A DNA stretch of 64,000 bases from Nesterenkonia sphaerica (GTDB taxonomy: Bacteria > Actinomycetota > Actinomycetes > Actinomycetales > Micrococcaceae), in assembly GCF_005771565.1 (NCBI RefSeq), contig NZ_VAWA01000010.1:326-64325 (forward strand), in the 5' to 3' direction. Below the pieces are notes generated by a model. The model had not been told where the DNA came from. It searched no databases and was given only the letters and a program-made list of their open reading frames with translations. Below are positions 3 through 35,563 of the stretch, piece by piece; positions within the stretch are counted from its first letter, which is position 1, and each line of letters starts with the position of its first letter. The translations under genes were made by a program, and so were the position numbers.

Positions 3-578
3 GAAACCGATGAGCTGAACCAGCTGACCACCAACCGTGACCGACTCCAACACGAACAAGAACGCCTGCTGCAAGCCCACTACGCCGACGCCATCCCACT
101 CGCTCTACTCAAACGCGAACAAGACCGCATCCTGGGTGAACTAGACCAGGTCAACCGACGCATCGACGCCCACCACGGCGAGTACATCGAGGCCAGAAAC
201 CACCTCGAAGACGCCCTGACCCTGCTCGCCAACTGCGCTGACATCTACGCTCGATGCGACGACACCAACCGGCGACTATGCAACCAAGCCTTCTTCACCA
301 AGGTCTACATCGACGAAGACGACAAGCTCCGCGTCGAGCACCAACGCCCCTTCGAGATGCTGCTCGACCCCCAGATCAACGGCAACGCCCTCAACTGGAG
401 CCGAGACGACAACAAGGCCCGAACCCCCGCCAACGAATCGTTGGGCAAGGGTTCGAGCCTTGTGCGTAGGGTGGGCCCTGCGGGGCTCGAACCCGCGACC
501 AGCGGATTAACCTGCCACTTCGACTTTCGCCGCCGCCCCTTCGGGGCGTTCGTGGTCTGGACTGTCCCTTCACCGTAG
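3..578 (+). CDS. Large serine recombinase, C-terminal part (5' end outside window)
   Basis: The open frame enters from the left edge and continues for about 191 codons to a TAG. It shows the charged, coiled-coil-rich C-terminal region of large serine recombinases (many Q/E/R/L residues, then a segment around ADIYARCDDTNRRLCNQAFFTKVYID). The resolvase catalytic domain would lie upstream, outside the window. From about position 466 the frame runs antisense through the tRNA-Lys 3' half, giving the tRNA-derived peptide GPAGLEPATS, and stops inside the intron. The natural 3' end of the gene therefore abuts the tRNA, which suggests that a second mobile element lies to the left with its end at this tRNA. 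Family assignment is good; which element it belongs to is inference. Confidence 0.75.
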   Translation, partial: ETDELNQLTTNRDRLQHEQERLLQAHYADAIPLALLKREQDRILGELDQVNRRIDAHHGEYIEARNHLEDALTLLANCADIYARCDDTNRRLCNQAFFTKVYIDEDDKLRVEHQRPFEMLLDPQINGNALNWSRDDNKARTPANESLGKGSSLVRRVGPAGLEPATSGLTCHFDFRRRPFGAFVVWTVPSP

Positions 579-764
579 CTTGCGCCGTAGGTGCCACCCG
601 TCCAGTCTCTACACCTTCCAAGACGTGGTCTCGGCTTGGCTCGGGATTGCCATCTAGATTCCATCTAGGAAGGGTTCCCCGACTTTGAGTGGTGTCATCC
701 CCAGCGTTTCCACCGAGGCGCTCCTATTTGAAGTCCGATGCTCTACCAACTGAGCTAAAGGCCC
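472..764 (-). tRNA. tRNA-Lys(UUU), interrupted by a group I intron
   Basis: The 5' exon (764 to 731) starts GGGCCTTTAGCTCAG and ends in CGGACTT. The 3' exon (510 to 472) starts TTAATCCGC and contains the T-arm GGTTCGAGCC. Joined, they give a 73-nt cloverleaf: acceptor GGGCCTT/AGGGCCC with one G-U pair, D-arm GCTC/GAGC, anticodon loop CTTTTAA (anticodon TTT), T-stem GCGGG/CCCGC. CCA is not encoded. The two exons are separated by exactly 220 nt between anticodon positions 34 and 35, the same place as in intron-containing cyanobacterial tRNA-Leu. Without splicing the tRNA could not fold. The 3' exon overlaps the antisense serine recombinase frame. Confidence 0.93.
511..730 (-). ncRNA. Group I self-splicing intron (IC3-like) in the tRNA-Lys anticodon loop
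   Basis: Read on the minus strand, the 220-nt insert has the group I core in order: P element AAAGTCGGGGAACCC, Q element GCAATCCCGAGCC (P4 pairing CGGG/CCCG), R element GTGTAGAGACTGGACG and S element AAGGGACAGTCCAGA (P7 pairing GACTG/CAGTC). The 5' exon ends in U and can pair CUU with an internal GAG (three pairs with a terminal U-G wobble). The intron ends in G. P2 (CCTCGG/CTGGGG with a GGAAAC-type loop), a CTAGAT/ATCTAG hairpin and a CGCCCC/GGGGCG P9-type hairpin are visible. Long stretches closely resemble the Azoarcus tRNA-Ile(CAU) intron (GAGCCAAGC, GAAGGTGTAGAGACT). There is no homing endonuclease ORF. It should splice without proteins; that was not tested. Confidence 0.93.
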
Positions 765-19378: not shown

Positions 19379-22144
19379 TCAGCTGCGGCGTGGAGGGGTT
19401 CGACGAGGTGGGCGACGATGTGGTTTGCGCGGTTTCGGCGAGTCGTATTTCCGTTGCTGCTCGGCCGTCTTCTTGGATTTGGACTGCCGGGGTGTGGTGA
19501 GCGGGTCCTCGTCGTAACCCAGTTCCTGGTTGTGCTGTGCGGCCTGGGCTTTGCGTTCCTCATAGGAGAGTAGTTTCACGCCGCCATAGAGTCTTCCCTG
19601 AGCGGTCCTGGGTGCTTTGCTCCCGACTTTGACACCGTGGCGCTCCAATGCGTCTGCCACCCGCTTATCGCCCAGAGGCCGCAGTTGGCGCTGTTGGCAC
19701 CAGATCTCGTATGCGTCCCGGAATTCGGAGACGAGGACTGTTTCACCGTCAGCGAGCTTGCAACGCTCCTCGAGGAACTGGCCCACCGGGTTGGATTCTT
19801 CGGCGTAGTCGGAGGTTGTGGCCCTGACAAGGTCCGGTATTTCTCCGAGCCCTTCCTTGTGATATTCCACTGCTCCCTCAGCTGCCCATGCGAGGACAGC
19901 CGGCAGATTGCCGAAGATCTTCTCCTTAAGGTTGGGGATCTTCTGCTCATCAGGGATGTCCTCGTCGAAAGGGATTGTCCTCAACCTTCGAAGCATCGCG
20001 TCGTCGCTGCCGTCGAAGCCGGGGCGATGGTTGCCGACAAGGAAGTGTGTGTGACTCGGGGTGAAGTTGTGATGCTCTTGATACAGGTGCCGTGCTGAGA
20101 GGGTGTTTCCGCCCGAGAACTTCTTTACACGTTTTTCGTTGAGGCGGTCGGTGGCCTTGACCTCATCAATCAGGGCTAAACGTGTGCCCTTGAGTACCAC
20201 CGCCTTGGTTTCCTCATCGTCTGAGCCCTTGGTCTCCAGGAGGATGCCGTCGGGGACAACTGCTGCATAGTCACCCATGGCCGTCATGATGGATTCCACG
20301 AAGGTGGATTTTCCACGTCCGGACCGTCCTGTGATAAAGACGATGAGGTGCTCTCGGACTTCGCCAATAAGGGTCAAGCCGACCAGCCGCTTGAGGTACC
20401 TGCGCACCTCTGGGTCTGGGACTGAGGTGTGCAGGAAGTTCTCCCAGAGAGTGCGGTCTGCCTCGAAGTCAGGAGCGACGCCTGCAATTTTTACGTGCAG
20501 CTTGGTGGGATCATGAGGCAGCAGCTGTCCTGTCCGTAGATCCAGTATTCCACCGGGGGTGTTGAGCTCCCAGGGGTGGTTGTCGAACCTGTCGTCATCG
20601 ACTCGAAGCTGCGGCAAACTGTTGGCCATGGAGAGCATGTTGTTGATCCCTTGGCGCGACAGTGAATACTTTTTGTGCGCGGCGAGAGCGTTGGAGGCGC
20701 TCTGGTCAGGTTTGCCTTGGTTGTCGAACTCCTCTGTGGGCAGTGCTCGGGCAGTCTGTTTGGCAAGCTCGCGCTCGATCCCGCCTTTGCCAGGCTGAGG
20801 AACCCATCGCACGCCGTTCCAGTGCACCCATACCCCGTGGGCGGAGGAGAAACGGATGACCTCACAATGATCGGAAGCGAAACGGTTGGCATTTGCATCG
20901 TCAGTCCGCTCCAGAGTTGCCCCGTTGGTTTGCTGCCCCGGCACGGAGTCCTTCTCTGCTCGTTTGGCAGCCAGGTCAATGACGACTCCGTCAGTACCTG
21001 TCGCCGCGCCCTGCGGGGAGGCCGCAGGGTACTCCGCACGGGATGTGGAAGCAGCCTTCTTGCGTTCGCCGTACCCGAGCTCACTGAGTGCTTTTGCCGC
21101 AGCGGAGAAGTCCCCGCTGTGGCGAGAAAACGCATAGTATTCAAACTTTGTATAGGTTGTCTTTTCTTGCCCCTTCCCGTCCTCGGTAGGCAGGCCGAAC
21201 TGGGACAGCGCCCCTGCTGAGGGCACATACAGAAGTGAGAAGGTTTTCTCTTCGTCGTATTTGTCCGGGTGGGTGTAGACCGCAGCGTCGACACCATTGG
21301 TGGAAGCTCCAGGGCGTCGCCAGTGATCCTCGTTGCCGGTGGAACGCACATATTCCCACCCATCGGCATCCAAGATCTCCTGCCAGTCAGCACGCTGGTT
21401 ATAGTCATCGCCAGGCAGCTCTGGGTCACCGACGTTTCTCTCACGAGCTACTTGAAACCCCACCTCACGCTTGGGTTTGGCCGGGCGGCGATCGAGTTTC
21501 TGGAAGAGGGCGCGAAGAAGGTGCCGCTCATCCATCGTTATTTCGGCGATGGTATCCGGCCCGCCTGTCAGCGTCTTATAAGGTTTGCCCGTCGAGTGGG
21601 TGTGCCCATAGCTAGGAGCCATGGTGGAGTTTGCCTTGGCGGCTTTGACCTCAGCGATTTGAACTTTCTTATGCTCTGGGTCCTCCGCCAGGCTTTCGCT
21701 GCGCGGCATCTCCTCGCAATCGGTGATCCTGACCATCCAGTGATATCCGCCCGAAGGACTCTGTTCCATCCAGCCGGACCGGATGCGTCGCCAGACCTCT
21801 TCCGTTCGTTCGCCGTGCTCCTGGGCAAGCCTGTTGAGCTCTGAGACTTTGTCCCGGTGTGGGCCTTCCAGCTCCCACATCTCAACGAACCCTGAGGGTT
21901 CCCCCGTGACGATCGCGATGCCCTGCGCCGGCCCTGACGATTCCGGGTGACGCCCAGAGAGCCAATCATCATCCTGCTGGTCCTCACCGAACCACAACTC
22001 AATGGTCTCGTCGCCCTCAAACTTGTACTTGGCGTCTGACCATGGCGTCAGGGGCATTTTGTCCTTACCGAGAGGAAGGATCCGAAACCCGGCGGCGACC
22101 AGTTCATATGCTGTGTCTCGGAGAGCTTGTTGCTGCTCGTCCAT
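19379..22144 (-). CDS. PrimPol / D5-type primase-helicase (replication protein of the element)
   Basis: A 921-residue protein combining an N-terminal bifunctional primase-polymerase domain with a phage P4/D5-type superfamily 3 helicase. N-terminal signs are AYELVAAGFRILPLGKDKMPLTPW, GIAIVTGEPSGFVEMWELEG and SPSGGYHW. The helicase has Walker A GRSGRGKST (residues 606-614), Walker B-like RLALIDEV and a sensor block HFLVGNHRPGFDGSDDAMLRRLRTIPF. The ATG at 22144 follows GAAAGG at six bases. The primase acidic metal ligands, usually D-x-D, read E-x-W-x-L-E here, so primase activity is less sure than helicase. It is the likely initiator for an excised plasmid form, downstream of the hypothetical and excisionase genes. 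Confidence 0.87.
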   Translation of the reverse strand: MDEQQQALRDTAYELVAAGFRILPLGKDKMPLTPWSDAKYKFEGDETIELWFGEDQQDDDWLSGRHPESSGPAQGIAIVTGEPSGFVEMWELEGPHRDKVSELNRLAQEHGERTEEVWRRIRSGWMEQSPSGGYHWMVRITDCEEMPRSESLAEDPEHKKVQIAEVKAAKANSTMAPSYGHTHSTGKPYKTLTGGPDTIAEITMDERHLLRALFQKLDRRPAKPKREVGFQVARERNVGDPELPGDDYNQRADWQEILDADGWEYVRSTGNEDHWRRPGASTNGVDAAVYTHPDKYDEEKTFSLLYVPSAGALSQFGLPTEDGKGQEKTTYTKFEYYAFSRHSGDFSAAAKALSELGYGERKKAASTSRAEYPAASPQGAATGTDGVVIDLAAKRAEKDSVPGQQTNGATLERTDDANANRFASDHCEVIRFSSAHGVWVHWNGVRWVPQPGKGGIERELAKQTARALPTEEFDNQGKPDQSASNALAAHKKYSLSRQGINNMLSMANSLPQLRVDDDRFDNHPWELNTPGGILDLRTGQLLPHDPTKLHVKIAGVAPDFEADRTLWENFLHTSVPDPEVRRYLKRLVGLTLIGEVREHLIVFITGRSGRGKSTFVESIMTAMGDYAAVVPDGILLETKGSDDEETKAVVLKGTRLALIDEVKATDRLNEKRVKKFSGGNTLSARHLYQEHHNFTPSHTHFLVGNHRPGFDGSDDAMLRRLRTIPFDEDIPDEQKIPNLKEKIFGNLPAVLAWAAEGAVEYHKEGLGEIPDLVRATTSDYAEESNPVGQFLEERCKLADGETVLVSEFRDAYEIWCQQRQLRPLGDKRVADALERHGVKVGSKAPRTAQGRLYGGVKLLSYEERKAQAAQHNQELGYDEDPLTTPRQSKSKKTAEQQRKYDSPKPRKPHRRPPRRTPPRRS

Positions 22145-22283
22145 GCGGGGCCTTTCTGTACTTCTCATTTTCACAGGGGACGTTGACGCTGGGATTGGCA
22201 CTCGCGGCGAACGTCATTGCATCGCACTGCGGGTGTCTTCGGCGATCCCGCGACCGAAGGAAGCCTGGCGGCTTTCAAGAGCT

Positions 22284-31182: not shown

Positions 31183-31536
31183 GGACCCACGTGGGGGAAG
31201 TTCGCGAACTCCGAGTCCCCTCAGAACTCGCCCCTGACTGCTGGTCCGGCAGAGACAACTGGGCCATTTCAATCTTCCTCTCCAGCGATGAATGCCGCCA
31301 GTCACGCACTGAAGCAACGCTATAGATGTAGTGCCCGCCCTGTTGTCTGATCCACTGCGTGCTCCATGCAGTGGAGCCCCGCACCCACTGACGCAATTGG
31401 GCACTTTTGGCGTCACGCCAGGATGCCCGGACGTGACATGAGTACCTTGTTTCACTAGTAAGTGTCCGGTTGAGTACAAATATTGCCTTGCACTTTCTGC
31501 TGCCAAATGGCTGCAGAGCCCATTACAGTGGAATCC
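31183..31536. other. Intergenic stretch, no gene seen
   Basis: About 350 bp between the membrane protein and the regulator-integrase pair. No protein-like frame or strong repeat was found. AGTGTCCGG near 31460 resembles part of the island repeat at 3893 and 29455 but without the second half. Confidence 0.35.
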
Positions 31537-31926
31537 ATGAAGTCGAGACCATCGTTGCCCCCAGGGCCGCTGTCGAAGGCCGTGTCGAAGCTTGTCCGCT
31601 CAGAAATCAACGACCGGAAGATCACCCAAGGCGAGCTCGCAGAGCGTCTAGGCAAGTCACGCAGTTATGTCTCTGAACGCTTAAATGACGCCGTCACTTG
31701 GAACGTGAACGATCTCGAGGAAGTGGGAGATGTTCTCAGCCTGGGAGCACACGGGCTTTTCCTTCGTGCACTGCAGATTTACGAGACAGAGAAGCACCTC
31801 GAGCGCTTCGCTTCAGACTTCGTCGTCCAGTTCCTTCGTGACATGACTCCTCCGTCCGAAGAATCTCCCGATGAAGCAGAAATCCGAGAGATCTACCGCC
31901 AGTGGGTTCAGCAGCGAGGTGAGTGA
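31537..31926 (+). CDS. XRE-family regulator coupled to the integrase
   Basis: A 129-residue protein with an N-terminal HTH (LVRSEINDRKITQGELAERLGKSRSYVSERLNDAVTWNVNDLEEVGDVLSLG) and a helical acidic C-terminus. The stop overlaps the integrase start by one base (TGATG), so the two are cotranslated. It likely controls integrase expression and maintenance of the integrated state. The ATG at 31537 is chosen; an ATG at 31507 would add ten residues but has no better ribosome-binding site. Confidence 0.78.
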   Translation: MKSRPSLPPGPLSKAVSKLVRSEINDRKITQGELAERLGKSRSYVSERLNDAVTWNVNDLEEVGDVLSLGAHGLFLRALQIYETEKHLERFASDFVVQFLRDMTPPSEESPDEAEIREIYRQWVQQRGE

Positions 31927-33287
31927 TGGGACGTCGAGCAAACGGGGAGGGCTCTAAGCCTTACCAAGTCAGCAAAGGACGCTGGAGGGCTGATGTCACC
32001 GTCGGGACTGACCCGATTACCGGAAAGCGCATCCGCAAGCCGGTCTATGGCCGATCCCAGGCTCTCTGTGCGGCTGCCCGTCGCGACCTCATCCGTCAAG
32101 TCGAAGACGGCGCCGTCACCATCGGTTCCGCCCCCACTCTCCAAGAATGGCTGGACCATTGGCTCTACGTCATCAAGAAGGAGACGTTGAGGGACAGCAC
32201 CCTGGAGGGCTACGAGGCGAAGATCGCCTGGCTGAAAAACACAAAACTGGCCCGAACCAAGCTGGACAAGCTCAACCCTGAGCATATTGAGACTTTCTAC
32301 GCACGTAAGCGGGCTGAGGGAAGGGCCGTTGCTTCAGTGCTCCAGCTTCACCGCATCCTCAACGGCGCTTTCAAAGCAGCAGTGAAGCGGGGAAGGCTCG
32401 GCTCCAATCCCCTGCTGAAGGTTGATGCACCTTCGGGCCGCTCCGACGAGGCCTTTGTGCCGCCAACCTTCACCCCAGAAGATGCTCGGAAGATCATCGC
32501 TCATGCAGAGACATTGCCGCCATCTGAGGCCGCACGCTGGATGATGGCGCTCACCTATGGGCCCCGGCAAGGTGAAATTCTGGGGTTGGGCTGGGATGCA
32601 GTGGACCTTGACAGCGGTCAAATTGACCTTCGTCGGACTCTCTACCCCAAGAAATGGCGGCACGGATGTGATGACCGTAGCCGCTGCCCCGCGAAGGGAC
32701 CGCACCTCTGCCCATCCAGGCATGGTGGCGGCCTCTTCTTTGGAACTCCTAAGTCGCAGGCTGGGCGACGGAGTGTCCCCGTCCCCAAGCAGGTGCTGAA
32801 GCACCTGAAGAAACTTCATGCAGAGCATCTGGCCCTGAATGCAGCTGAGGGTGAACGACGTCAGCAATATACAGATCCGAACGGCGTCACCGTTGACCTT
32901 GTCTTCTGCCAGCTCAACGGTCGTCCGCACCGCCCTGAAAGTGATTGGAGGCGGTGGGAAGCACTCCTGGAGGAGTGCGGAGTTGGCCACCGCCGGCTTC
33001 ATGACGCACGGCACGTCTCGGCCACAATGATGCTGACGCTCGGCATCGATGCCCGTGTCGTGATGGACCTCATGGGCTGGAGCCAGCGGGCCATGTTGGA
33101 CCGGTACCAGCACGTGCTCGACGACATGAAGCGTGACGTCGCAGCGCAGGTCGGAAATGCCCTCTGGGCTCATCCGAAATCCCCAGAAGACCCCAACCCG
33201 GAGCCAGGCGACGACATCAAAGAAGGGCCTTCCAGTGACACGACCGTCATTAACTTCGACGAGTGGAAACAGCGTCGCACGGGCTAA
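31926..33287 (+). CDS. int: Tyrosine recombinase (site-specific integrase)
   Basis: A 453-residue phage-type integrase. The N terminus (GRRANGEGSKPYQVSKGRWRADVTVGTDPITGKR) is an AP2-like arm-binding domain, followed by a SAM-like core-binding domain (TLQEWLDHWLYVIKKETLRDSTLEGYEAKI) and the catalytic domain. Catalytic residues are visible in order: Arg in YGPRQGEILGLGWD, His and Arg in LHDARHVSA, the Trp of GWSQRAMLD, and the nucleophile Tyr in DRYQHV. A Cys-rich insertion (GCDDRSRCPAKGPHLCPSRH) in the catalytic domain occurs in related actinobacterial integrases. It lies about 1.5 kb from the tRNA-Lys fragment at 34771, the probable att site. Confidence 0.92.
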   Translation: MGRRANGEGSKPYQVSKGRWRADVTVGTDPITGKRIRKPVYGRSQALCAAARRDLIRQVEDGAVTIGSAPTLQEWLDHWLYVIKKETLRDSTLEGYEAKIAWLKNTKLARTKLDKLNPEHIETFYARKRAEGRAVASVLQLHRILNGAFKAAVKRGRLGSNPLLKVDAPSGRSDEAFVPPTFTPEDARKIIAHAETLPPSEAARWMMALTYGPRQGEILGLGWDAVDLDSGQIDLRRTLYPKKWRHGCDDRSRCPAKGPHLCPSRHGGGLFFGTPKSQAGRRSVPVPKQVLKHLKKLHAEHLALNAAEGERRQQYTDPNGVTVDLVFCQLNGRPHRPESDWRRWEALLEECGVGHRRLHDARHVSATMMLTLGIDARVVMDLMGWSQRAMLDRYQHVLDDMKRDVAAQVGNALWAHPKSPEDPNPEPGDDIKEGPSSDTTVINFDEWKQRRTG

Positions 33288-33791: not shown

Positions 33792-34517
33792 TCACCTGCT
33801 CAGCCGGGACTCGGCGATGTCCAGGCGGCGATGGAGGAGGCTGGCCAGCGCGAGCGTCTCCAGCGCCTCATTCGGGTCGTCGCCGTGGGCAAGCTCGTGT
33901 GCCTTCGGATTTCGGATCCCTACCATAGCGCCCCGGAACAGGTGGAAGAAACCATCGCGCTCGTCCTCGCCACTGCGCCCTTCCTCGACTCCCACATCGA
34001 GTTTGAACCCCTGGGGCTTGAACGCCTCCTGCATGAGTGGCGCTCCCGACAGCTCCAAACCGGTTAGTCGTCGCACCCGGACTTCGACCGACTTCATAGC
34101 CTCAGTGATAGCTGAGTCATACTGACCGTCCGCGAATAGCGTGCTTGCTGAGGAGATGACCTCCGAATGCAGTAGTTCAAGATTTAGTCGCCGCACCGGA
34201 GCCTGGCGCACAGGCTGGGCCTGGCCCCATTTTACCTTTGCGTAACCGTTGGAGCGGCCGAATGATGCTTTCATGCTGGCGGGCATCGGGTTCTGCTCGA
34301 TTTCAGCCGCGACCTTGAGTATCGTCCCGCCCCTGGGGTCTGGCATCTCGACGTGGTCACCTTCATAGAGAGGGTCCTCGAGAGCGAAGTAGGCCTCATT
34401 CGAGTTCAGCAGTTGGGCCTCAGTCTCCACTCGCTCTTCGTCAGCGGTTCCATAGTTCTTAACGATCGTCACAAGAGTCATGCCTTGACGGCGTATCAGG
34501 GGCGGAAGAGGTGTCAT
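33792..34517 (-). CDS. TIGR02391 (Ymh)-family protein
   Basis: The 241-residue protein has a C-terminal Ymh-type domain: LHSEVISSASTLFADGQYDSAITEAMKSVEVRVRRLTG, APLMQEAFKP and FHLFRGAMVGIRNPKAHELAHGDDPNEALETLALASLLHR. The N-terminal 100 residues form a separate beta-rich part (EAYFALEDPLYEGDHVEMPDPRGG). The family is frequent in mobile elements and often near defence genes; its biochemistry is unknown. The start (34517 or 34481) is uncertain. It faces the integrase across a 145-bp gap after the zinc-ribbon gene. Confidence 0.75.
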   Translation of the reverse strand: MTPLPPLIRRQGMTLVTIVKNYGTADEERVETEAQLLNSNEAYFALEDPLYEGDHVEMPDPRGGTILKVAAEIEQNPMPASMKASFGRSNGYAKVKWGQAQPVRQAPVRRLNLELLHSEVISSASTLFADGQYDSAITEAMKSVEVRVRRLTGLELSGAPLMQEAFKPQGFKLDVGVEEGRSGEDERDGFFHLFRGAMVGIRNPKAHELAHGDDPNEALETLALASLLHRRLDIAESRLSR

Positions 34518-34643
34518 AGATCAAGCCTATAGGGCGTCGCGGGACACGGCTTGGGCCGAACTGCGCATCCGGCAGAGAGCGGTGAGCTTGCCAACCTTGC
34601 GCAAAGCCTAGCTGATTACTGCTGTGGGCGATTAGCGCTCGGA

Positions 34644-34678
34644 AAAATGGCCACCAAAATGGCCACCAGACGGCCATT
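34644..34678. repeat. AAAATGGCCACCA tandem repeats, candidate integrase arm sites
   Basis: AAAATGGCCACCA occurs at 34644-34656 and 34656-34668 (12-bp period), followed by the inverted GGCCATT at 34672-34678. It lies about 100 bp from the tRNA-Lys fragment, where integrase arm-type sites usually lie. Functional role inferred from position. Confidence 0.45.
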
Positions 34679-34770: not shown

Positions 34771-34814
34771 AGCGGATTAAAAGTCCGATGCTCTACCAGC
34801 TGAGCTAAAGGCCC
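34771..34814 (-). repeat. tRNA-Lys 5' fragment, probable attachment site
   Basis: Reading from 34814 to 34771, the sequence is that of tRNA-Lys(UUU) from its first base through the D-arm, anticodon stem-loop (CGGACTTTTAATCCG) and one further base, 44 nt, with no intron. It then departs completely from the tRNA. It differs from the left copy by one base in the D-loop (AGCTGG instead of AGTTGG). Upstream, TTGTGG and TAGTTT with 17-bp spacing could be the old tRNA promoter. This looks like the chromosomal 5' half left behind when the element integrated in the anticodon loop. Confidence 0.8.
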
Positions 34815-34936: not shown

Positions 34937-35563
34937 ATGAAACATGCCCCGCGTTACCGCCGTCCCGCGTACTCAGACCCCGCGTCGTTCGACCGACGCG
35001 AGGGTGGAGCTGACCCGGCCGACATCTCCCAAGCCGCGCATGACACCGCCCACGCGCTGATCAATCAGGGGCGGCACGCGGCGGACCCGGAGGCCACTGC
35101 GCGGTTCGTTCGACTCGCGGAAACAGAGGGTATTGAAGCGATTGCCGAGTTGTGGGCACACTCCCCTGCCCGGTCACTGGCCGGAGCGCTGTGGCGGATC
35201 TATGCGCTGCGAGCTGCCATTCAGAAGTCCCCGGAACGGATGAGTGAGTTCTACCGGCTCGGACGCAGCCACTCTGCCCCCTCCGCCATTGCGGGAGTCG
35301 CCGAACCACCGACCGCAGAAGAGATGAACCGACTCACCGACCACCTTCTTGCCGGGATGTACTCCGGAGACATTGACGTCGCCTTCGACCGTGCGGGTGC
35401 TTTCTGCCGAGTCATCGCCCGAGGCCAGGCTCTCTGGGCCGACAGGGCACACGTGAGCGCCCGCGAAGCCCAGGTGCTCACCGAGCGAGCGAACCGGCTG
35501 GTAACTACGGCCGAGGAACTTGAATCCTCAGCTCGAGCCTTCCGCACCGGCGCTCTCGACTGA
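34937..35563 (+). CDS. Conserved actinobacterial hypothetical protein
   Basis: A 208-residue helical protein starting MKHAPRYRRPAYSDPASFDRREGGADPADISQAAHDTAHALINQG. It resembles a family in Micrococcales that is sometimes (probably wrongly) labelled RNA polymerase subunit beta, from memory of the pattern YRRPxYxxPxxFxR. The ATG at 34937 starts this conserved part; an upstream extension overlaps the tRNA promoter. It is the first chromosomal-looking gene right of the element. Confidence 0.65.
   Translation: MKHAPRYRRPAYSDPASFDRREGGADPADISQAAHDTAHALINQGRHAADPEATARFVRLAETEGIEAIAELWAHSPARSLAGALWRIYALRAAIQKSPERMSEFYRLGRSHSAPSAIAGVAEPPTAEEMNRLTDHLLAGMYSGDIDVAFDRAGAFCRVIARGQALWADRAHVSAREAQVLTERANRLVTTAEELESSARAFRTGALD

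Follow-up and report, generated by a model that had tools for sequence, protein, structure and literature searches.

An Intron-Bearing Replacement tRNA-Lys(UUU) Gene on an Integrated Element That Splits the Host tRNA-Lys Gene of Nesterenkonia sphaerica

The Intron-Bearing tRNA-Lys(UUU) Gene

A tRNA-Lys(UUU) gene interrupted by a 220-nt group I intron lies at 764-472 on the minus strand of the window, the whole stretch of 64,000 nucleotides of Nesterenkonia sphaerica DNA analysed here. The 5′ exon (731..764, minus) is 34 nt long and its last bases are CGGACTT (U34). The IC3-like intron (511..730, minus) is too small for an endonuclease gene, and the 3′ exon (472..510, minus) starts with TTAATCCGCT. 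An earlier, sequence-only reading of this DNA had described two tRNA halves exactly 220 nt apart, a terminal G and a U-G splice pair. All of this can be read off the sequence: the intron is exactly 220 nt, its final base is G (window minus strand, 730-511), and P1 is formed by exon CUU with the IGS GAG, with a U-G pair at the splice site. ARAGORN reports zero tRNAs in the window as it stands and calls a complete tRNA-Lys(ttt) once the exons are joined in silico, as that reading had anticipated for the spliced sequence. It had also proposed a covariance search with the intron model RF00028, which matches at 740-533 (minus) with 29.1 bits (E 1.9e-5, in a search of 651 bases). The score falls below the gathering score of 50 and hence an ordinary Rfam scan is silent on the window intron. 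Three relatives and phage Daredevil have introns that likewise escape the gathering-threshold scan.

The fold was scored in an alignment of 29 introns (from the window, relatives, a phage, viral contigs, a plasmid and other bacteria) over eight helices of the group I structure, the P3/P7 pseudoknot included. Pairing is found in 95.4% of 1192 cells and falls to 26-45% of cells when the partners are slid by 1-3 columns. Two-sided changes occur in 26 of the 42 pairs, and 0 of 500 shuffles attain any of five measures. P3, P4, P7 and P8 are paired in 100% of cells and P6 in 92.3%; two of the four P3 pairs and one of the five P7 pairs covary. These patterns show a conserved group I core in the window intron, with the P3/P7 pseudoknot, P4, P6 and P8. 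The transcript would splice itself with GTP, restoring the anticodon loop CUUUUAA.

The sequence-only reading had further proposed looking for relatives of the intron, and eight other copies were found in seven other genomes among 395 of the family; chance is therefore excluded for the window intron. The exons are conserved across the nine copies. With exons that join to a tRNA-Lys(ttt) and an eight-helix fold that covaries, the central claim of that reading, that an actinobacterial tRNA-Lys(UUU) is interrupted by a group I intron, is borne out. The bacterial tRNAs known to host group I introns include tRNA-Leu(UAA), tRNA-Arg(CCU), tRNA-Ile(CAU) and tRNA-fMet (PMC8450103 for part of the list), and matches to the intron model occur in many bacterial tRNAs of these types. 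Titles and abstracts, mostly of non-subscription literature, treat no group I intron in an actinobacterial tRNA-Lys or in an element-carried tRNA. Introns of 22-49 nt in cyanobacterial tRNAs, tRNA-Lys included, have been described as 'group I' (PMC5733544); in our view, they are too short to hold a group I core.

The Split Host Gene and the Integrated Element

The intron-bearing gene is not the host's own tRNA-Lys(UUU). A weak Rfam tRNA match at 34813-34753 (minus) is a second half-tRNA, intact as far as the end of CTTTTAATCCGCT and unrelated beyond. This half forms attL (34771..34814, minus): it covers nt 1-44 of the native tRNA-Lys(UUU) gene, severed by the element, and has host-type upstream sequence. 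A host marker gene (about 34937..35563, plus), which lies divergently upstream of tRNA-Lys in relatives, adjoins it. The 13-bp core CTTTTAATCCGCT (34771..34783, minus) corresponds to tRNA nt 32-44 in the anticodon arm, and is common to attL, to attR (contig C14, L039 8531-8543) and to intact tRNA-Lys genes. The host 3′ part lies on contig C14, from CTTTTAATCCGCT onward, behind an Abi_2 gene. When attL and attR are joined in silico, ARAGORN calls a tRNA-Lys(ttt) in 6/6 such sites. It finds no tRNA at either junction, and the junctions consist of host halves only in 5/5 att pairs. The attL half, the C14 half, their shared core and the rejoined tRNA together show that the anticodon arm is where the host gene was severed, and neither of the two halves is a tRNA. 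The sequence upstream of the attL half resembles that of intact tRNA-Lys genes in intronless relatives, whereas the sequence upstream of the intron copy does not; the latter is common to other element-borne copies and unlike that of intact host genes.

A tyrosine integrase of 454 aa (31923..33287, plus; PF00589, E 1.3e-17) is encoded about 1.5 kb from attL. It is preceded by a small HTH protein (31483..31926, plus; PF13412 and PF01381), and a Hypoth_Ymh protein (33792..34517, minus; PF09509, E 4e-33) marks the left end of the element. A tandem GGTGGCCATTTT repeat (34643..34667, minus), 116 bp from the core, likely provides arm-type integrase sites. In N. sphaerica, the distance of the tandem GGTGGCCATT repeats from the core is 116 bp at attL and 137 bp at attR. 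They flank both sides in genomes G165, G290 and G283 as well, and a search for the pattern in G228 found it absent. We infer that an integrated tyrosine-integrase element has its left part in the window; the integrase is assigned to this element through proximity. The cargo includes a D5_N protein of primase/helicase type (19379..22201, minus; PF08706, E 2.9e-25). Among 20 window proteins scanned against Pfam or read, a subset of the ORFs, there are no phage structural genes; these proteins are the integrase, D5_N, Ymh, and mostly metabolic or unknown ones. The cargo varies, from about 34 kb in N. sphaerica to about 80 kb ahead of the intron tRNA in G290. In G165 it has AAA_26, two aminotransferase, P450-type and BATS/radical-SAM domains, a set suggestive of biotin synthesis.

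The window and G290 have integrases that are 99.8% identical, and the left end of the element is 100% identical over 700 bp, against 84.6% for the neighbouring host marker gene. These identities support a recent horizontal transfer of the whole element. Horizontal movement had been suggested by the sequence-only reading for the intron; the movement is supported, but the mover is the element. That reading had missed that the gene is element cargo, that the host tRNA-Lys is split and that the intron sits on the integrase core. A different delimitation, in which the element spans 764-34781 and its attP holds the 5′ half and the intron with crossover in TTAATCCGCT, was rejected because G165 shows the intron tRNA inside a longer element with attR beyond it.

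A further element is present at the start of the window, where the C-terminal part of a large serine integrase (3..509, plus) abuts the 3′ end of the intron tRNA. It was recognized by tblastn with the serine integrase of contig C14 (78% over 169 aa), and a full-length relative has Resolvase, Recombinase and Zn_ribbon domains. Large serine integrases (window 3-509; L039:8478-10226) end tail-to-tail at the tRNA-Lys 3′ end, where one adjoins the intron copy and another the host 3′ half. In N. sphaerica, tRNA-Lys is a stacked integration hot spot, and the serine integrases probably use the tRNA 3′ end. A serine integrase as the splitter of the host gene was considered and rejected: in G290 and G283, the intron tRNA that abuts a serine integrase keeps a variant 3′ half, and this half is the same in G165 and G245a, where no serine integrase was found. 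Just before the first base of the window (L040:280-370), contig C2 has an N and then a repeat of ~45 bases, which looks like an assembly join.

Distribution in Nesterenkonia

Among 30 Nesterenkonia genomes drawn, the layout of attL and attR is found in five of the seven that bear the intron (N. sphaerica, G165, G283, G290 and G228). In these five, attL is tRNA nt 1-44 and attR runs from nt 31 or 32 to the end. The assembly of G165 has two contigs, and one of them contains the host 5′ half, 11.2 kb, the intron tRNA-Lys, about 16.5 kb, and the host 3′ half. Each of the remaining four has attL, the intron tRNA and attR spread over two or three contigs. The draw included 23 intronless genomes, and a contiguous tRNA-Lys was found in all 15 that were fetched; two intronless genomes (G153 and G304) have an additional 3′ half besides the contiguous tRNA. 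For the association of intron and split tRNA, we give counts only and no statistics because Nesterenkonia genomes are related. No downstream gene is shared among the intron genomes compared.

Two further candidates for a split gene were not confirmed. In G218, the intron tRNA lies 1157 bp from the host marker gene and there is no split copy. In G245, one copy of the element is joined to CTTTTAATACGCA and its left junction was not found. At this second copy of the right end of the element (L076:11661), the CTTTTAATACGCA junction stands beside methyltransferase-like sequence and is perhaps a secondary attB. G228 has a second, decayed tRNA-Lys 3′ half 0.9 kb past attR (L078:3961-4000), which is likely a relic of an earlier insertion.

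The Intron Copy as the Sole tRNA-Lys(UUU) Gene

The N. sphaerica assembly (a draft of 86 contigs, completeness 99.27%) has 45 matches to RF00005. One is the split half, and the other 44 were typed with ARAGORN. Another intact tRNA-Lys(UUU), a possibility raised in the sequence-only reading, does not exist among these 44 genes, where the lone lysine tRNA has the anticodon CUU. Under the decoding rules, a CUU anticodon does not serve AAA. The intron copy, the only UUU gene found in the assembly, should therefore be essential and should require splicing. Provided that the gene is essential and that the assembly lacks no part of the genome, it would have to be spliced in the cell. For ten other intron genomes, 20 of the best remaining tRNA-Lys matches were typed and 0 were UUU; they are Lys(CUU), Val, Met, Thr or Asp. 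The same typing gave tRNA-Lys(ttt) for two intronless control loci. In the near-complete genomes G165 and G218, none of the matches listed or typed is a further UUU copy. That no second UUU gene was found in N. sphaerica suggests that the carried tRNA is needed for stable integration.

Recurrence of the Arrangement and Relationships of the Introns

The arrangement is repeated in G175, a genome of another genus of the family, with other recombinases than those of the window element. There, the 5′ fragment of the host gene (nt 1-25) is about 150 bp away from an intron tRNA, the rest of that gene (nt 25-75) is about 24 kb away from it, and the rebuilt site is a tRNA-Lys(ttt) by ARAGORN. The island (L081:10719-18270; L115:11285-14379) encodes SMODS, Sa_NUDIX, SIR2, HsdM and two tyrosine recombinases, which we take to be Tn554-like. 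It is a defence island that splits tRNA-Lys, with CBASS-type, SIR2 and type I modification proteins next to the tyrosine recombinase pair.

Gordonia phage Daredevil is the third case. The intron gene finds some match in 119 of 50,697 phage records, with coverage of at least 80% only in two Daredevil records. The match (NC_048021.1, 41843-42128, minus; L377:3001-3310) is an unannotated, intron-bearing tRNA-Lys(UUU). It is located between the integrase and gene 53, and an attP with CGGACTTTTAATCCGC lies in the same gap. ARAGORN finds zero tRNAs over 41 kb of Daredevil. According to PMC10865867, Daredevil integrates at tRNA-Lys-TTT with no rebuilding, is listed without a tRNA and forms clear plaques. 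Contrary to that listing, Daredevil carries a tRNA-Lys gene. Its T-loop is ATCGAAA, with which the spare tRNA may be non-functional, and the clear plaques also speak against a working spare. Six phages with related integrases (BrutonGaster, Bantam, SpeedDemon, DatBoi, Mollymur and Cain) have one cargo tRNA each by ARAGORN, on the opposite strand and immediately upstream of the integrase; of the seven phages, Daredevil alone gives an intron with the intron model. The cargo tRNA-Lys(ttt) of BrutonGaster (L414:3603-3676, NC_048169.1) is unannotated in the stretch of the record examined. The window integrase is 26% identical to that of Daredevil over 454 aa (E 4e-31).

A tree of 46 introns places the 23 actinobacterial Lys introns in a single clade (100/99), next to which stand alphaproteobacterial tRNA-Arg(CCU) and tRNA-Leu(UAA) introns. 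Five Lys introns from viral contigs group apart (93/93), and Daredevil and one viral row have long branches and unsure positions. The sequence-only reading saw a close resemblance to the Azoarcus tRNA-Ile intron. The tree does not favour this: the two sampled CAU-type introns (betaproteobacteria) are distant, Azoarcus itself being outside the set. The IMG/VR viral contigs (L262, L311, L317, L331 and L361) have group I introns in tRNA-Lys(UUU) with a separate origin in the tree. Additionally, 1272 of 72,556 plasmid records (mostly of enteric bacteria) match the intron, mostly at 60-80% identity, and the one record examined (NC_004464.2, L378:1360-1571) has an intron in a tRNA-Leu(UAA)-like gene. 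Host tRNAs were assigned by trying 143 of 252 intron-model matches with varied boundaries, near-identical and cut-off ones being omitted. Each match gives several registers, many of them wrong, and only an exon CTT at offset 1 was kept for Lys and Leu; 16 of the 143 gave no tRNA.

A Proposed Mask for the Attachment Core

The published system closest to this locus is tRNA-dependent lysogeny (Guerrero-Bustamante and Hatfull, 2024; PMC10865867), and the arrangement in the window is that system plus an intron in the spare tRNA. In the mechanism we propose, the integrase would recombine at the 13-bp core in the anticodon arm of the host tRNA-Lys(UUU) and split the gene, so that neither junction would encode a tRNA after integration. 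The complete replacement tRNA-Lys(UUU) of the element, with its own upstream sequence, would make integration survivable. In PMC10865867 it is speculated that a second insertion may use the carried tRNA gene as its attB. In the spare gene of the window, the core reads CTT, intron, TTAATCCGCT, with the intron after the third base of the core. With the core broken in the DNA, neither its own integrase nor other anticodon-loop integrases should use the spare gene as attB. The intron would hide the att core in the DNA, and splicing would restore the tRNA. The longest word shared with the rebuilt attP is 10 unspliced and 13 spliced in the window, and 9 and 16 in Daredevil. An intron at the core should prevent a second insertion without harm to the RNA.

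Good support exists for a group I intron in a replacement tRNA-Lys(UUU), on an element that splits the host gene; that this intron masks the att core is plausible and unproven. Taken as a whole, an element that splits the host gene, an intron-bearing replacement tRNA and a core broken in the DNA form the best explanation, one that we consider reasonably probable. The shielding role of the intron, taken alone, is tentative and comes slightly short of even confidence. The intron of G218 without a split copy and the one G245 element located elsewhere stand against this explanation, as does the spread of attL, intron tRNA and attR over more than one contig in every split genome but G165. The cargo tRNAs of Cain, Bantam, SpeedDemon, DatBoi and Mollymur, which have no intron, match attP over 11, 9, 10, 9 and 9 bp, respectively, and the core lengths given in PMC10865867 are 11 for Cain and 9 for Mollymur. 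Because intronless cargo tRNAs keep a match to attP of about core length, the intron is not required. The intronless phage cargo tRNAs, the clear plaques of Daredevil and the native intron of Microbacterium all speak against a strict need for it.

Alternative Explanations

The intron may instead be a passenger. The element would have picked up a tRNA-Lys that already bore an intron, the intron would splice, and its place on the att core would be a coincidence, since group I introns and integrases both favour the anticodon loop. Microbacterium speaks for this explanation. There, the intron occurs in 11 of 149 genomes drawn, and 13 intron genomes (the 11 of Microbacterium, Tsukamurella sp. 8F and an actinomycete MAG) have no split or second UUU copy; the control genome G493 has an intact gene. 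An 'orphan half' in G403 was considered as an att site and rejected as decayed tRNA-like sequence. Ten Microbacterium intron loci, compared with six intronless loci, share neighbourhood clusters with them, on both sides in nine (G398 downstream only), and the Microbacterium intron therefore resides in a native gene. In many bacteria, tRNA-Leu(UAA) has a related intron at this position, and cargo tRNAs without an intron exist. Coincidence has to contend with the presence of the intron in the cargo tRNAs of three different integrating elements (the window type, the G175 island and Daredevil), each of which targets the anticodon arm or nearby. We regard the passenger explanation as possible and rather doubtful. 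On the favoured explanation, in which the intron masks the att core, the mask might be used by several unrelated elements, and the native tRNA-Lys introns of Microbacterium might immunize their hosts against anticodon-loop integrases; this extension is speculative, though worth entertaining.

Alternatively, the intron might have entered the spare gene after integration, by homing or reverse splicing, and never have been part of a moving element. Its insertion between U34 and U35 matches the site used in tRNA-Leu(UAA), so that another tRNA could in principle have supplied it by reverse splicing. However, element-type upstream sequence accompanies the intron in 8/8 Nesterenkonia copies (in G218 partly) and host-type sequence never does, the intron tRNA of G165 is a complete gene well inside the element, and the phage genome of Daredevil has its intron tRNA before integration. 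Late entry is thus improbable. That the intron gene is a dead copy, another tRNA-Lys(UUU) having been missed in an incomplete assembly, draws on the 86-contig draft state and is very improbable given the 99.27% completeness, the exons conserved in nine copies, the covarying intron core, and the near-complete G165 and G218 without another UUU copy among the matches listed or typed.

Significance and Comparison With Known Systems

Bacterial tRNA introns are usually seen as neutral passengers. If the proposal is true, they gain a use, that of guarding a spare essential gene from a recombinase. It would join tRNA-dependent lysogeny and group I introns, and it predicts where further tRNA introns should occur. 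It also adds to a published case, in that the tRNA-Lys of Daredevil was concealed by its intron. Programs that find tRNAs miss such genes, and genomes or phages seemingly without a tRNA-Lys(UUU) may have one.

In canonical integration at tRNA genes, attL or attR rebuilds the tRNA, whereas the element studied here has a shared core of 13 bp and leaves no tRNA at either junction. Many related integrases, at 37-52% identity, lie beside an intact tRNA. The likeness to tRNA-dependent lysogeny is closer: the window element has a tyrosine integrase (PF00589), as in that system, and likewise a short (13-bp) core within a host tRNA gene that integration does not restore. It also carries a complete tRNA, whose spliced form is called by ARAGORN and which lies inside the element in G165. 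Unlike the phages of that system, it has no structural genes among the window proteins scanned, and a group I intron interrupts its spare tRNA at the core; the accessible part of PMC10865867 reports no intron. With other bacterial tRNA group I introns, the window intron shares a small IC3-type core and has no endonuclease gene, and with the tRNA-Leu(UAA) intron it shares the insertion point after U34. It differs from the known bacterial tRNA introns in that it interrupts another tRNA, and does so in the spare gene of a mobile element, on the core of the integrase.
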